Position numbers and translations under genes: made by a program
DNA from: Trichocoleus desertorum ATA4-8-CV12
GTDB taxonomy: Bacteria > Cyanobacteriota > Cyanobacteriia > FACHB-46
Reading direction: 5' to 3'
Assembly: GCA_019358975.1 (NCBI GenBank)
Contig: JAHHIL010000003.1
Coordinates: 186,001-250,000 of the forward strand
Length of the DNA stretch: 64,000 nucleotides
In this document: piece after piece, positions 30,652 through 39,203 of the stretch
How the letters are laid out: each line of letters starts with the position of its first letter
Position numbering within the stretch: position 1 is the first letter of the stretch
Notes under the pieces: generated by a model
Database searches by the model: none
Told to the model about the DNA's origin: nothing
The model's input: the letters and a program-made list of their open reading frames with translations, nothing else

Positions 30652-30942
30652 ATGATAGAACCCTGGCTGATCGGTTTCGCTTTGGTGGGTTTGGGCAGTA
30701 TATTTGCAGTTCAAAGTCGCTCACCTGATGCCATAGACAGTTCCCGCCTTGCAAGATTGGAAGGCAAAGTTGATCTAATTCTGGACAAGCTGGAAATTGA
30801 CTACAACGAAACCATCGAAGATCTAGTCAGGTCAGGCGATCGGATTGGAGCAATCAAAAAGTTACGTGAAGAAACAGGAGTTGGTTTAAAGGAACCATTA
30901 GACGCCGTTAAAGCAATGGAAAGGAGCATCAAGCGGTCTTGA
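30652..30942 (+). CDS. small membrane protein with ribosomal L7/L12 C-terminal-like domain
   Basis: One N-terminal helix (WLIGFALVGLGSIFAV) precedes a short helical linker and a compact domain ending IGAIKKLREETGVGLKEPLD. That run resembles the L7/L12 C-terminal domain (IKxVRExTGLGLKEAKxLV), which binds translation factors. Cyanobacterial genomes contain small proteins of this kind of unknown role. The gene starts 13 bases after hpt, on the same strand, so it may be cotranscribed. Confidence 0.72.
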   Translation: MIEPWLIGFALVGLGSIFAVQSRSPDAIDSSRLARLEGKVDLILDKLEIDYNETIEDLVRSGDRIGAIKKLREETGVGLKEPLDAVKAMERSIKRS

Positions 30943-31372: not shown

Positions 31373-34294
31373 TTATAAAATTTCCACAGTGCCTTGCTGA
31401 CCATCAATCCTCACCCATTGATCGTCGTGTAACTGATGGGTCGCGTCATGCACATCCATCACGGCAGGGATGCCGTACTCTCGTGCCACGATCGCGCCGT
31501 GAGATAACCGCCCACCAACTTCCGCAATCAAGCCTCCCGCTCTCGCCAACAGGGGTGCCCAACCAGAATCGGTGTATGGCACTACCAAAATTGTTTCTCG
31601 ATCGATTTCTGCGATCGCTTGTAAACTCCGCAACACTTTTACTCGACCCTCCACCTGGCCTGGGCTAGCTCCAATTCCTTGTAATTTTTGCGAAGGTTGC
31701 CAGTTATGGACGGTGACAGGGGTGAGTGGGGCATTCCCATAGACCAAAGCTGGCACTTGTACCAGTTCATTATCTTGGGCCAATTGCGATCGCCGTTCTG
31801 CAATTAACGTAGAAACTTGGTTAGATAAATCGGCATCCGACTGCTGAATCAGCCGCCAAATTTCCTCAAACCTCAAGAAGAAAACATCGCCTGCTGCTGT
31901 CAGTAATCCTTGCTCCAGCCACAACTTTTCTAGCGCCACGAAACTCCAGCGCAATTCTGCTAGCAATTGGCTATATACCTCTGTCACCTGACCTTTCAAA
32001 CTCACTCGCTGCTGGACTCGCTGCACTTTCCAAGCAGGCGATCGCGATGTAATAGGCAAAGGCGCACTCGTAGTAGGAGGATTAAGCAGAAATTGGGTGA
32101 ATAGATCACAAACAGGTTTGGAATCTTCACGCCAAGTCGGCACCGCAATATCCGTCCCCACTTCACTCAAGTAACCATAGGTGTCGAGAAACTGAGCTAG
32201 CTGGTCAGACAAGGTTTGACCGTTGGGGAGGGCTGCTAAGGTGTCAAAAACTTCAGGAGTTGGAGCAGAAGGATTTTCCAAGTTAGCGACTAAATGGCGG
32301 TTACGATTGGCGATGTCTTGCAGCGATCGCAACGCGGCAACTTCCGGAGTGTTGCTGTTGTCTATTTCGCTATCCTGAACCTTTAGAATTGCCTGTCGTA
32401 ACGCTGCACTCAGTGGAGCCAAAATGCTGTAATAAGTCGCCCGCTTCAATACCCGCAAAATAGTATCAACGCGCTCTAGGAGAGCAGGAGCGCTCAAGTT
32501 CTCGGCAGGTTCTCGCGTTAGCGTGGTTAAGAGGGGTGCAAACTGACGCTGATAGTCGTAGCGGAAATCTTTGTCGAGCTGCCATTCTCGTTGGAGCAGT
32601 CGCAGTAGCCCTGGTGTATTGCCTAAAGTGGAGCCTAGAGGTGGTTTGCTGAACTTGGCTCCTCTAGTCAAGAATTCCAGGCTCTCAGGAGGTAAGCCCA
32701 TGCGGAGGAAAGTTTGCCCTAACAAAGAGGCGTTGAAGTAAGCACGGGAGTGATGTAGTGTCGCGGTTTCGTTGAAGTCTAGTCCTCGCGATCGCTTGCC
32801 ACCTAAAACTAAGGTAAAAATTTCTCCCCAAACCCCACAGGTCAAAGGCCGATTAATCGACCAAGTTAAGGGACGAATCAAGCCAGGAATCACTTCCGCC
32901 GCAATTTTGCGCGTCCAGATAGGTACCAGGGTGGTAATGGGTCGCGATTGCAGGAGCCACAACGTTTGCCCATCGTAAGTCCACTCAATATCTTGCGGTA
33001 GCCCGTGATATCGCGCCTCTAAATGTCTGGCTAGAAATGCCACTTGTTGAATTAAGCGAGGAGGCAAATCCCCGGTTCCTTCTACTGGCAGGTCTAAATC
33101 GGTGGGTAGTAACCAACTAGAATCCGCTTGGGCTAAATCGCTTTCACGCACCAAAACCCGATATTGCTCTGGCGTAAACTGCCCGGAGACAATCCGTTGC
33201 GTCTCACCGGGGAGCGCTTCAATCACCACTGCCTCGCCCTGCCGAGCGATCGGATCACGGCTAAAAGCCACCCCAGAAAAGGCACCACGAATTTGTTGTT
33301 GTACCAATATCGCCATTGACGCTTCTGGCAGTCCACGATCGCGCCGATATTGCACCGCTCCGGGCTGATCATAGGAAGCCAAGCACTGAGCGATCGCCCG
33401 CTCCAACGCTCCTTGACTTGTCACGTTCAAGATACTTTCGTACTGCCCTGCCGCCGACGCTAGTTCTGAATCTTCTCCCACCGCTGAAGACCTGACCACC
33501 AAAGGTTTCTCGGAGGAAGGTTGCAGAAACTCAATCAGCGGCGTTAGATCGTCTCCGGGTGGCAAGACCCAACCTGCTGGGACAGGGTAGCCCCACCGCA
33601 TCAGTTGTGAGAGCGTAGCTGCTTTCTGTCCAACTTTTTGCGCTTCTAAAGGCCGATTCAGCGAGACTAGAGCGCGATCGCCGCGAAAAAACTTAAACAC
33701 TGCTTGGGATTCCGGTTGACCTGCTTCTGGGGTTAAGTCTAAGTCATCAGGAATCTTGTGGTAAATCCACCCCATGAGACTACCCAAGGCGATCGCCGCC
33801 ACAATCAAAGCAGATTCTTGAGGATGTAATAAAGCAGTGAGCAGGGGAAACAAAACTAAAACTAAGATCTTGCCCTGACGCTTTTCTCGCAGAATCGTGG
33901 AGCCAATACCCCCCAAAATAAACACCAGCAACGAAGCCATCCAATCGTGAACAACGTAGCCCCAGACCACATTGGTTGTGCCTGCGCCTCGCCCCATCCA
34001 ATAACGCCCCATCACCAAGGCGATTAACGAGATCAGCTCCCACTCTGGGGCTTGCGGAAAAAAGTAACGGGCAATTAAAACCGCAGCAATCCCCTTAAAT
34101 GCCTCTGACAAGACAGCCAGAATCCCAACCAGCCGACCGCCATGATAAAACGCTGCCGAAACACTAACGTTGCCTGTTCCGAGCTGGGCCAGTTGTTTCC
34201 GAGTTAGGGCATAGGTGATCCAGTTAATCAGAGGCAGACCACCGAGCAGCGGGCAACCAATGCAAATAATCAGAGCGCCTAAAACTTCGTTCAT
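31373..34294 (-). CDS. PlsY-like membrane domain fused to a PEP-synthase/rifampin-phosphotransferase-like dikinase
   Basis: Residues 1-185 resemble PlsY glycerol-3-phosphate acyltransferase: LGTGNVSVSAAF (GxGNxG loop), SEAFKGIAAV, and GRGAGTTN in place of GGKGVAT, with five to six membrane helices. Residues 200-460 are a PPDK N-terminal ATP-grasp domain: VGQKAATLSQL, VRSSAVGEDSE (267-277), GQYESILNV, and DIEWTYDGQTLWLLQSRPIT (435-454). Residues about 460-850 are a helical middle region. The C-terminus is a swivelling phospho-His domain: GIGASPGQVEG and GGRLSHGAIVAREYGIPAV with His932. The PEP/pyruvate TIM barrel is absent. The order ATP-grasp, unknown middle, phospho-His matches rifampin phosphotransferase rather than PEP synthase. 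The acceptor is unknown; a lipid-linked or membrane substrate is inference. Confidence 0.8.
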   Translation of the reverse strand: MNEVLGALIICIGCPLLGGLPLINWITYALTRKQLAQLGTGNVSVSAAFYHGGRLVGILAVLSEAFKGIAAVLIARYFFPQAPEWELISLIALVMGRYWMGRGAGTTNVVWGYVVHDWMASLLVFILGGIGSTILREKRQGKILVLVLFPLLTALLHPQESALIVAAIALGSLMGWIYHKIPDDLDLTPEAGQPESQAVFKFFRGDRALVSLNRPLEAQKVGQKAATLSQLMRWGYPVPAGWVLPPGDDLTPLIEFLQPSSEKPLVVRSSAVGEDSELASAAGQYESILNVTSQGALERAIAQCLASYDQPGAVQYRRDRGLPEASMAILVQQQIRGAFSGVAFSRDPIARQGEAVVIEALPGETQRIVSGQFTPEQYRVLVRESDLAQADSSWLLPTDLDLPVEGTGDLPPRLIQQVAFLARHLEARYHGLPQDIEWTYDGQTLWLLQSRPITTLVPIWTRKIAAEVIPGLIRPLTWSINRPLTCGVWGEIFTLVLGGKRSRGLDFNETATLHHSRAYFNASLLGQTFLRMGLPPESLEFLTRGAKFSKPPLGSTLGNTPGLLRLLQREWQLDKDFRYDYQRQFAPLLTTLTREPAENLSAPALLERVDTILRVLKRATYYSILAPLSAALRQAILKVQDSEIDNSNTPEVAALRSLQDIANRNRHLVANLENPSAPTPEVFDTLAALPNGQTLSDQLAQFLDTYGYLSEVGTDIAVPTWREDSKPVCDLFTQFLLNPPTTSAPLPITSRSPAWKVQRVQQRVSLKGQVTEVYSQLLAELRWSFVALEKLWLEQGLLTAAGDVFFLRFEEIWRLIQQSDADLSNQVSTLIAERRSQLAQDNELVQVPALVYGNAPLTPVTVHNWQPSQKLQGIGASPGQVEGRVKVLRSLQAIAEIDRETILVVPYTDSGWAPLLARAGGLIAEVGGRLSHGAIVAREYGIPAVMDVHDATHQLHDDQWVRIDGQQGTVEIL

Positions 34295-34435: not shown

Positions 34436-35518
34436 TTAACCGTGAATAGCAGGAGCGCTCAGCGCTACAGGAGCAGCTTCGCCAGCAGCTAGGTCGAGAG
34501 GGAAGTTGTGAGCGTTACGCTCGTGCATCACTTCCATCCCCAGGTTCGCACGGTTCAACACGTCAGCCCAGGTGCCAATCACTTGACCTTGAGAGTCGAT
34601 GATTGATTGGTTGAAGTTGAATCCGTTCAGGTTGAACGCCATCGTGCTGATGCCCAAGGACGTGAACCAGATGCCGATCACAGGCCATGCACCCAAGAAG
34701 AAGTGCAGAGCCCGGCTGTTGTTGAAGGACGCATATTGGAAGATCAAGCGGCCAAAGTAGCCATGAGCTGCCACGATGTTGTAGGTCTCTTCTTCTTGAC
34801 CAAACTTGTAACCGTAGTTCTGAGACTCGTTCTCGCTGGTTTCACGCACCAAGGAAGAAGTCACCAAGGAACCGTGCATCGCGGAGAACAGAGCGCCCCC
34901 GAACACACCTGCCACACCGAGTTGGTGGAAGGGGTGCATCAAGATGTTGTGCTCAGCCTGGAACACCAACATGAAGTTGAAGGTACCGGAGATGCCGAGG
35001 GGCATGCCATCGGAGAAGGAACCTTGGCCGATGGGGTAGATGAGGAAGACTGCGGTTGCGGCTGCGACAGGCGCAGAGTAAGCGACGCAGATCCAAGGAC
35101 GCATGCCGAGGCGGTAGGAGAGTTCCCACTCACGACCCATGTAGCAGAAGACGCCAATGAGGAAGTGGAAAATCACGAGTTGGTAAGGGCCACCATTGTA
35201 GAGCCACTCATCGAGGGAAGCGGCTTCCCAGATGGGGTAGAAGTGGAGGCCGATCGCATTGGAGGAAGGCACCACGGCACCAGAGATGATGTTGTTGCCG
35301 TAGATGAGGGAGCCAGCGACGGGCTCACGGATACCATCGATATCGACGGGAGGAGCGGCGATGAAGGCGATGATGAAGCAGATGGTAGCAGAGAGCAGGG
35401 TTGGGATCATCAGGACGCCGAACCAGCCTACATAGAGGCGGTTGTCGGTGCTGGTGACCCAGTTGCAGAACTGCTCCCACAGGTTGGCGCTTTCGCGTCT
35501 CTGTAGAGTAGTAGTCAT
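34436..35518 (-). CDS. psbA: photosystem II reaction-centre protein D1, high-light (Glu130) type
   Basis: The 360-residue D1 protein is complete from ATG 35518 ([20 protein letters not shown]). The usual five-helix pattern is present, as are the ligands and redox residues in their places: Tyr161 region, His190 in helix D, His215/272 for iron and QB, and the C-terminal [17 protein letters not shown], with cleavage expected after Ala344. Residue 130 is Glu (GREWELSY), the form that in cyanobacteria with several psbA genes marks the high-light isoform; the low-light isoform has Gln. The upstream ATG at 35578 is not used: it would add 20 non-D1 residues. Codon use is strongly biased, as expected for a highly expressed gene. 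Confidence 0.98.
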
Positions 35519-35585
35519 GTTTGGATGAGTGCTTATTACGAAATTAGATGAATCTATGTAAAGTAGGGCAACCCCCACTCCTTAT

Positions 35586-37871: not shown

Positions 37872-39203
37872 ATGTTTAGGCAAATTCGTCGTCCCCAGGG
37901 CAATCGCGTCGTCGTAGGGGGGTATCACCGCGATCGCCAAGATGACCGCGATCGTCGTTATGCTCGGCCTCGTAGCGTCAAGCAGAATAGCTTGCCCAAG
38001 TTTGTAGATTTGCGGCAGCACATGACCACCGTAGAAAGCCAAGGCGAGTTGGGAAGCTGTACAGCCAACGCGATCGCGGGAGCTTACGAATATTTAGCCA
38101 AGCGACTCACGGGGCAAAACTACGATATTAGTCGCTTGTTTATTTACTACATGGCCCGAAAATTCGATGGCTGTGAGCAAGAAGACAGCGGCGCAACCTT
38201 ACGTCGGGGCATGAAAGTTTTGGCTAAGTATGGGGCTTGCTCTGAAGCTACCTGGCCCTACCAGATTGAAACTTTCTGTGATGAACCGCACGATGATGCT
38301 TTTCAAGAAGCGGCTGAGCACTTAATTGATGAGTACGATCGCATTGATGTTAACTTGCACGCAATGAAAGTCTGTCTAGCCGAGGGTTATCCCTTCGTCT
38401 TCGGCTCCGACATCTTTCAATCTTTTGAAGATCTGGATCATCGGGGGCACGTCAACCTGCCTTTACCCAGTGAAGAAAATTTGGGTGGTCACGCCATGCT
38501 TGCTTGCGGCTACTCAGACAAAGACCAAGTGTTTCTAGTTCGCAACTCCTGGGGTACAGAGTGGGGCGACAAAGGCTACTGCTACATGCCTTATGAGTAC
38601 CTGACCAATTCAGACTTAACAGGCGATTGCTGGACCCTACGCCGTGCCAACAATCTCGATTTTTCAGACGGCATCAGCAGTAGCTATGAAGAAGGATTCT
38701 CGTTCTTTGATCTGCTAATCGAACTCCTCACAGGCACAGATGTCCCCACGGACGAAGCTAGTAATGAGGAAGAGTACGACGAAGAAGAAATAGACGAAGA
38801 GTACGAAGACGAGGAAGTAGACGAGGACGACGAAGAATCTGAAGAAGATGAGGAAGAGTACGAAGACGAAGAAGTAGACGAGGACGAAGAGGAAGAAGAG
38901 GACGAGGCAGACGAGAACGAGGACGAGTATGAAGATGAAGACGGGGGAGAGTATGAAGAGGAGTTTGAGGATGAAGACGAAGAAGTAGATGAGGACGAGG
39001 AAGAAGACGAGGCAGAAGACGAGGACGAGTATGAAGATGAAGGCGAAGAGGACGACGAAGAATCTGAAGAAGATGAGGAAGAGTACGAAGATGAGGAAGA
39101 GTACGAAGACGAAGAAGTAGAAGAGGACGAAGAAGTAGAAGAGGACGAAGAAGTAGAAGAGGACGAGTATGAAGACGAAGAGTACGAAGACGACGAGGAG
39201 TAG
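37872..39203 (+). CDS. papain-like (C1) cysteine protease with a 147-residue acidic tail
   Basis: The catalytic domain contains Gln57 and Cys63 in ESQGELGSCTANA, His207 in GGHAMLACGY and Asn225 in VRNSWGTEWGDKGYCYMP, the papain triad plus oxyanion Gln. There is no obvious signal peptide or propeptide; residues 1-37 are Arg/Gln-rich. The N-terminal extension (HRDRQDDRDRRYARPRS) is basic. From residue 297 to the end the protein is almost entirely Asp and Glu with periodic Tyr and Val. Normal C1 proteases are 220-350 residues and lack such a tail. Target unknown. The acidic tail is encoded by repetitive GA(A/C/T/G)-rich DNA and gives long, meaningless antisense frames. Confidence 0.88.
   Translation: MFRQIRRPQGNRVVVGGYHRDRQDDRDRRYARPRSVKQNSLPKFVDLRQHMTTVESQGELGSCTANAIAGAYEYLAKRLTGQNYDISRLFIYYMARKFDGCEQEDSGATLRRGMKVLAKYGACSEATWPYQIETFCDEPHDDAFQEAAEHLIDEYDRIDVNLHAMKVCLAEGYPFVFGSDIFQSFEDLDHRGHVNLPLPSEENLGGHAMLACGYSDKDQVFLVRNSWGTEWGDKGYCYMPYEYLTNSDLTGDCWTLRRANNLDFSDGISSSYEEGFSFFDLLIELLTGTDVPTDEASNEEEYDEEEIDEEYEDEEVDEDDEESEEDEEEYEDEEVDEDEEEEEDEADENEDEYEDEDGGEYEEEFEDEDEEVDEDEEEDEAEDEDEYEDEGEEDDEESEEDEEEYEDEEEYEDEEVEEDEEVEEDEEVEEDEYEDEEYEDDEE

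Follow-up and report, generated by a model that had tools for sequence, protein, structure and literature searches.

What does a protein do when a membrane domain of the PlsY type and a dikinase resembling rifampin phosphotransferase (RPH) are joined in one polypeptide? The question is raised by a gene in a 64,000-nucleotide stretch of Trichocoleus desertorum ATA4-8-CV12 (contig JAHHIL010000003.1; hereafter the window), where positions 31373-34294 of the minus strand form one intact 973-codon open reading frame and the plus strand is stop-rich. A preliminary description, made from the sequence by itself, had read the product as an acyltransferase-type membrane domain with altered motifs, followed by an ATP-grasp domain and a phospho-His domain in the order found in RPH, and had suggested that it phosphorylates a lipid or lipid precursor. 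We followed this up with Pfam and NCBIfam models, profile alignments, structure prediction and comparison of orthologous loci.

A two-module gene and its distribution

The assignment of the whole gene to a PlsY-like membrane domain plus an RPH-like dikinase draws on the reading frame, Pfam and orthologues. Pfam matches PF02660 (PlsY) at residues 14-176 (4e-16), PF01326 (PPDK_N) at 261-456 (8e-42) and PF00391 (the PEP-utiliser mobile domain) at 898-968 (2e-23); it finds no PEP-utilizers_C barrel, and the swivel domain forms the C terminus. All on the minus strand, the protein runs from a PlsY-fold membrane domain (residues 1-190; 33725-34294) through an ATP-grasp (PPDK_N) domain (206-456; 32927-33679) and a middle domain that is a homologue of RPH's RIF-binding domain (457-865; 31700-32926) to a swivel phospho-His domain (866-973; 31376-31699) that matches the swivel domains of RPH and PPDK in structure. 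Within the last, His932 (codon 31499-31501), the predicted phosphate carrier, occupies the same alignment column as RPH's catalytic His. Residue conservation was counted over two orthologue alignments, A1 and A2 (29 and 53 sequences), and His932 is invariant in both. An AlphaFold2 model built from 53 orthologues has a mean pLDDT of 82.8 and a pTM of 0.50, so the fold of each domain can be trusted but not the way the domains are placed relative to one another; with that pTM, the docking position of the swivel domain was not used.

Full-length orthologues occur in dozens of genera, and the fusion is therefore neither a chance event nor an assembly artefact. Fifty-seven of 59 relatives match somewhere, most with the full fusion, at 46-96% identity, and in a 194-genome sample of the phylum the full fusion extends throughout the photosynthetic class (most Cyanobacteriia sampled). 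Among the matches listed for the non-photosynthetic families of that sample, none reaches into the membrane domain, and no fusion was found in its small-genome groups (families f2, f5, f17, f26 and others). When one genome per species was searched, the best 80 of 524 hits were cyanobacterial, except for one MAG labelled Tatlockia (sp. MGR_bin123). The gene in that MAG is 63% identical to the window's and has neighbours that recur in an Aliterella MAG, a cyanobacterial one; the label is probably erroneous, the result of mis-binning. An apparent fission in one genome (186 + 809 aa) was set aside, as the two parts meet in different frames, which suggests a frameshift and not a pair of separate genes. 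One fusion-carrying genome we take to be that of the thylakoid-less Gloeobacter violaceus. Two enzyme modules have been kept in one protein through most photosynthetic cyanobacteria and, because these apparently include Gloeobacter, the fusion may be older than thylakoids. We found no study of this protein in the open-access literature on the fusion or on PlsY in cyanobacteria; the likely reason that it escaped notice is that model strains with small genomes either have no such gene or carry dead versions of it.

The domain content, the order of the soluble part and the lack of a PEP barrel given in the preliminary description are thus all confirmed, and the altered membrane motifs it had pointed out prove to be conserved themselves; the strand is all that we add to it. 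Neither outcome that it named as telling against it was seen: the soluble part shows no barrel that would make it PpsA-like, and rather than breaking up in close relatives, the fusion persists full length and is real and ancient. The absence of the barrel also rules out a PEP synthase.

Two modules with altered sites

The membrane domain has the seven helices of the PlsY fold. VIA-align superposes model residues 4-204 on PlsY 5xj5 with a Z score of 18.0 (2.8 Å over 181 residues), Foldseek gives TM-scores of 0.67-0.76 on target against PlsY structures (0.76, at 2.8 Å, for 5xj7), and hhalign against 29 canonical cyanobacterial PlsY sequences gives a probability of 97.2 (E 4e-11). On this fold the motifs have been rewritten. 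Residues 39-51, GTGNVSVSAAFYH (34142-34180, minus strand), take the place of the PlsY motif GSGNxGATNxxR, with no variation at T40 or N42 in either alignment; residues 97-108, RYWMGRGAGTTN (33971-34006, minus strand), take the place of the PlsY loop from H92 to GGKGVAT, with R97, G105 and T107 invariant. By hhalign and orthologue counts, S35, N37, T41 and H92 of PlsY have become T40, N42, S46 and R97, all invariant or nearly so. The profile alignment to the 29 canonical sequences further replaces R45 by Y50, gives K104 no lysine counterpart in the fusion orthologues and shows the H177-x-x-N180 segment to be absent from them.

These changes fall unevenly across the active site. Published work on PlsY (PMC5700162) assigns the clamping of glycerol 3-phosphate (G3P) to S35, R45, K104 and N180 and the binding of its 2-OH to H177; the acyl-phosphate is held by H92, T41 and amides of the loop, and N37 is proposed to stabilise the oxyanion. 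Only S35 among the G3P-binding residues has a counterpart, as Thr. The G3P side of the pocket therefore appears to have been dismantled, and the lipid acyl-phosphate side to persist in changed form. A canonical PlsY is also present in all 39 genomes searched (in the source genome at G000:C1:252137), and this, together with the loss of the clamp, rules out a functional PlsY G3P acyltransferase.

The soluble part aligns with unfused RPH-like proteins over 733 columns, middle domain included (hhalign, E 1.4e-86), and sequence comparison with solved structures puts Listeria monocytogenes RPH closest. Foldseek matches the model to RPH at E 4e-28, and VIA-align pairs residues 205-973 with RPH 5hv2 at a Z score of 35.8 over 652 residues, with a large rmsd because the domains are arranged differently. 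Residues of the first half-reaction are intact: K22, R117, T136, E297 and H825 of RPH correspond to K224, R268, S/T287, E437 and H932, conserved in A1 and A2, and mutating K22, R117 or T136 cripples RPH (PMC4844700). K224, R268, S269, E274, D275, E437, Q449 and R451 are invariant in both alignments, S270 is replaced once, by T in A2, and by eye Q337 of RPH corresponds to an invariant E467. Whole-length homology together with intact equivalents of K22, R117, T136 and H825 places the fusion in the superfamily of RPH-like small-molecule dikinases.

The second site differs. In RPH the second transfer depends on R666 and E667, and these two residues hold the phosphate together with K670; unfused relatives in the genomes examined read R-E-x-x-K or R-E-x-x-R. 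The proposed counterpart in the fusion is R-V-S-L-K at residues 763-767 (31994-32008, minus strand), conserved as R763-[LV]-x-L-K767, and no sequence in either alignment has the Glu; the equivalence is a motif-level match, and hhalign places the gap elsewhere. Y774 lies eleven residues past R763, as in several unfused relatives. The RPH model NF041857 gives the fusion 234 bits against an equivalog cut-off of 999 (in pieces of about 118 and 100 bits), compared with 1318-1503 for true RPHs in other genomes, and PRK06241, RPH, RedH and PigC all rank high among NCBIfam models and all fall far below their cut-offs. The soluble parts also form a clade of their own (99/99), apart from the true RPHs that some of the same genomes carry. 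Model score and second-site motif together rule out RPH proper.

Function and its alternatives

Our preferred reading, which we hold tentatively and at a little short of an even chance, is a membrane-bound RPH-like small-molecule dikinase that acts on a hydrophobic hydroxyl acceptor. By analogy with the family, ATP would phosphorylate His932, giving AMP and Pi, and the swivel domain would then move to the middle domain and hand the phosphate to the acceptor. The acceptor would be hydrophobic and hydroxyl-bearing, entering or leaving through the PlsY-like domain; because the lipid acyl-phosphate side of this domain is kept and the G3P side is lost, it could hold a lipid-phosphate product or present the substrate instead of acylating G3P. 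Domain order and fold, the first-half residues, the homology of the middle domain, the kept or exchanged lipid side of PlsY and the joint decay described below all argue for such a dikinase, as do a lipid kinase gene near some loci and the known unfused relatives, which phosphorylate hydroxyls of rifampin and phenols. Against it stand the second site, where the Glu667 that is essential in RPH is mostly Leu or Val, the selection on dead forms and the lack of a conserved operon partner. The more specific version, in which the PlsY-like fold holds a membrane lipid or prenol and the beta-phosphate of ATP reaches this molecule by way of the swivelling His, is possible and somewhat doubtful. This is close to what the preliminary description had proposed, and it is borne out in part: the residues of the ATP half-reaction, the phospho-His, the RPH-like order and the reality of the fusion hold, whereas the different second-site residue, the distance from the RPH cut-off, the conserved dead forms and a neighbourhood that gives no clear substrate count against it.

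Comparison of 81 loci found no operon common to the whole class. In Nostocales, a small Cupin_2 gene overlaps the stop codon of the fusion by 4 nt (about 18 loci); a GDSL-type hydrolase gene lies divergently upstream of the fusion gene; and at five of the 81 loci a YegS-type lipid kinase gene follows within about 1.5 kb on the same strand. In the window, psbA (photosystem II D1; 34436-35578, minus strand) lies 142 bp upstream on the same strand as the fusion gene, and it is also close upstream at three other loci. None of these neighbours fixes the substrate. A link to the adjoining tocopherol genes (homogentisate phytyltransferase and a methyltransferase) was ruled out, as they are not conserved at other loci; at one other locus a 36% identical methyltransferase stands beside the fusion gene. 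The window also holds a 96-aa frame (30652-30942, plus strand) that weakly matches the C-terminal domain of ribosomal protein L7/L12, adjoining the homogentisate phytyltransferase gene, and a 443-aa protein resembling papain-type cysteine peptidases (37872-39203, plus strand) with a tail of about 150 residues that are almost purely Asp, Glu and Tyr.

Loss of the gene's sites tells more about how the modules relate. T40 and at least one core ATP-grasp or swivel residue are lost together in six independent lineages, counted by family (L180, L181, L182, L173/L177, L032/L033 and L031); in the first three the sites are partly decayed. Roughly 90 further proteins from the class keep both the membrane motif and the dikinase residues. 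Six joint losses suggest that both modules work in a single function, and this function, not simple anchoring, seems to be what maintains the membrane motif. What the pattern shows is that constraint on both modules ends at once; it does not give the order of loss, and general relaxation of the whole protein could also produce it. The L031 gene (5329-7104 of its locus) is a second copy in its genome, 591 aa long; it has no middle domain and keeps the membrane domain, an altered ATP-grasp domain and the His domain. Among the genomes, G032 is presumably Synechococcus elongatus PCC 6301.

Two of the six lineages are under strong purifying selection even though their forms are dead. L173 (1439-4138) and L177, in family f35, are full length with His changed to Gln and an eroded ATP-grasp domain (omega 0.066), and L032 (5833-7035) and L033 (5980-7158), in family f12, are remnants of 392-400 aa without the middle and His domains (omega 0.076); all are intact reading frames, and both values fall within the 0.02-0.21 of active pairs. 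Something beyond catalysis is therefore kept, at least in those lineages, and phosphotransfer is not the sole role everywhere. These full-length and shortened forms, each from two species, are what a membrane scaffold or sensor would leave behind if catalysis were minor or only a switch, dropped in some lineages; we nevertheless think a structural or regulatory protein of this kind unlikely, as the catalytic residues invariant in the 90 or so other sequences would be needless for a pure scaffold.

The altered PlsY pocket bears on another alternative, in which the dikinase makes an acyl-phosphate from a carboxylic acid and the PlsY-like domain uses it to acylate an acceptor other than G3P. The PlsY fold uses acyl-phosphate donors, only its G3P side is lost, with residues of the acyl-phosphate side still in place and the oxyanion residue Asn37 retained as invariant N42, and a single polypeptide would channel the unstable intermediate. 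Characterised RPH-like dikinases in the cited literature, however, phosphorylate hydroxyls and not carboxylates, H92 is changed to Arg, K104 is lost and no acceptor pocket is recognisable; we think such a self-supplied acyltransferase distinctly unlikely. Least probable, indeed improbable, is a ligase like PigC or RedH, in which one substrate, activated by phosphotransfer, is condensed with a lipophilic second one held by the membrane domain: the RedH and PigC models (215 and 210 bits) score so close to the RPH model that a kinase and a ligase cannot be told apart by sequence, but these scores lie far below the equivalog cut-offs (PigC 1300, RedH 1350) and no biosynthetic cluster was found around the gene in the neighbourhood comparison.

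Should the membrane dikinase prove true, oxygenic phototrophs would have a new chemistry in their lipid or isoprenoid metabolism. We found no description of a beta-phosphate dikinase reaction on lipids in the open-access literature, and a lipid dikinase would be a near-universal enzyme of photosynthetic cyanobacteria with a reaction type new for lipids.

Comparison with known systems

The fusion belongs neither with the rifampin phosphotransferases nor with the G3P acyltransferases. With RPH (L. monocytogenes 5fbs/5hv2) it shares the order of ATP-grasp, middle and swivel His domains, homology over the whole length of the soluble part and the first-half catalytic residues; it differs in its N-terminal PlsY-like membrane domain, in having no Glu667 equivalent that we could find, in its score far below the RPH cut-off and in its separate clade. 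PEP synthase and pyruvate phosphate dikinase likewise combine ATP-grasp and swivel domains, but in them the His domain sits centrally and a PEP/pyruvate barrel lies at the C terminus, neither of which is the case in the fusion. PigC and RedH, the prodigiosin and undecylprodigiosin ligases, resemble its soluble part in architecture and model score, whereas they are soluble, cluster-bound ligases whose cut-offs it misses.

The two-component phenolic dikinases HpeHI and CreHI and the phenylphosphate synthase PpsAB are also built from RPH-type modules and act on a small hydrophobic hydroxyl compound; unlike the fusion, they are soluble, split into two proteins and devoid of a membrane domain. A genome of the same genus holds a split dikinase that resembles the HpeHI kinases (L042, 3954-6481), in which a 564-aa middle and His protein overlaps a 278-aa ATP-grasp protein by 4 nt and an MFS transporter gene follows. 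Finally, PlsY (5xj5-5xj8) has the same 7-TM fold and the equivalents of S35 (as T), N37 and T41 (as S), whereas in the fusion the G3P phosphate clamp and His177 are gone, H92 is Arg, a dikinase is attached and a canonical PlsY is present besides. If the dikinase reading is right, the fusion shows how PlsY, an acyltransferase, came to be reused as one part of a different machine.
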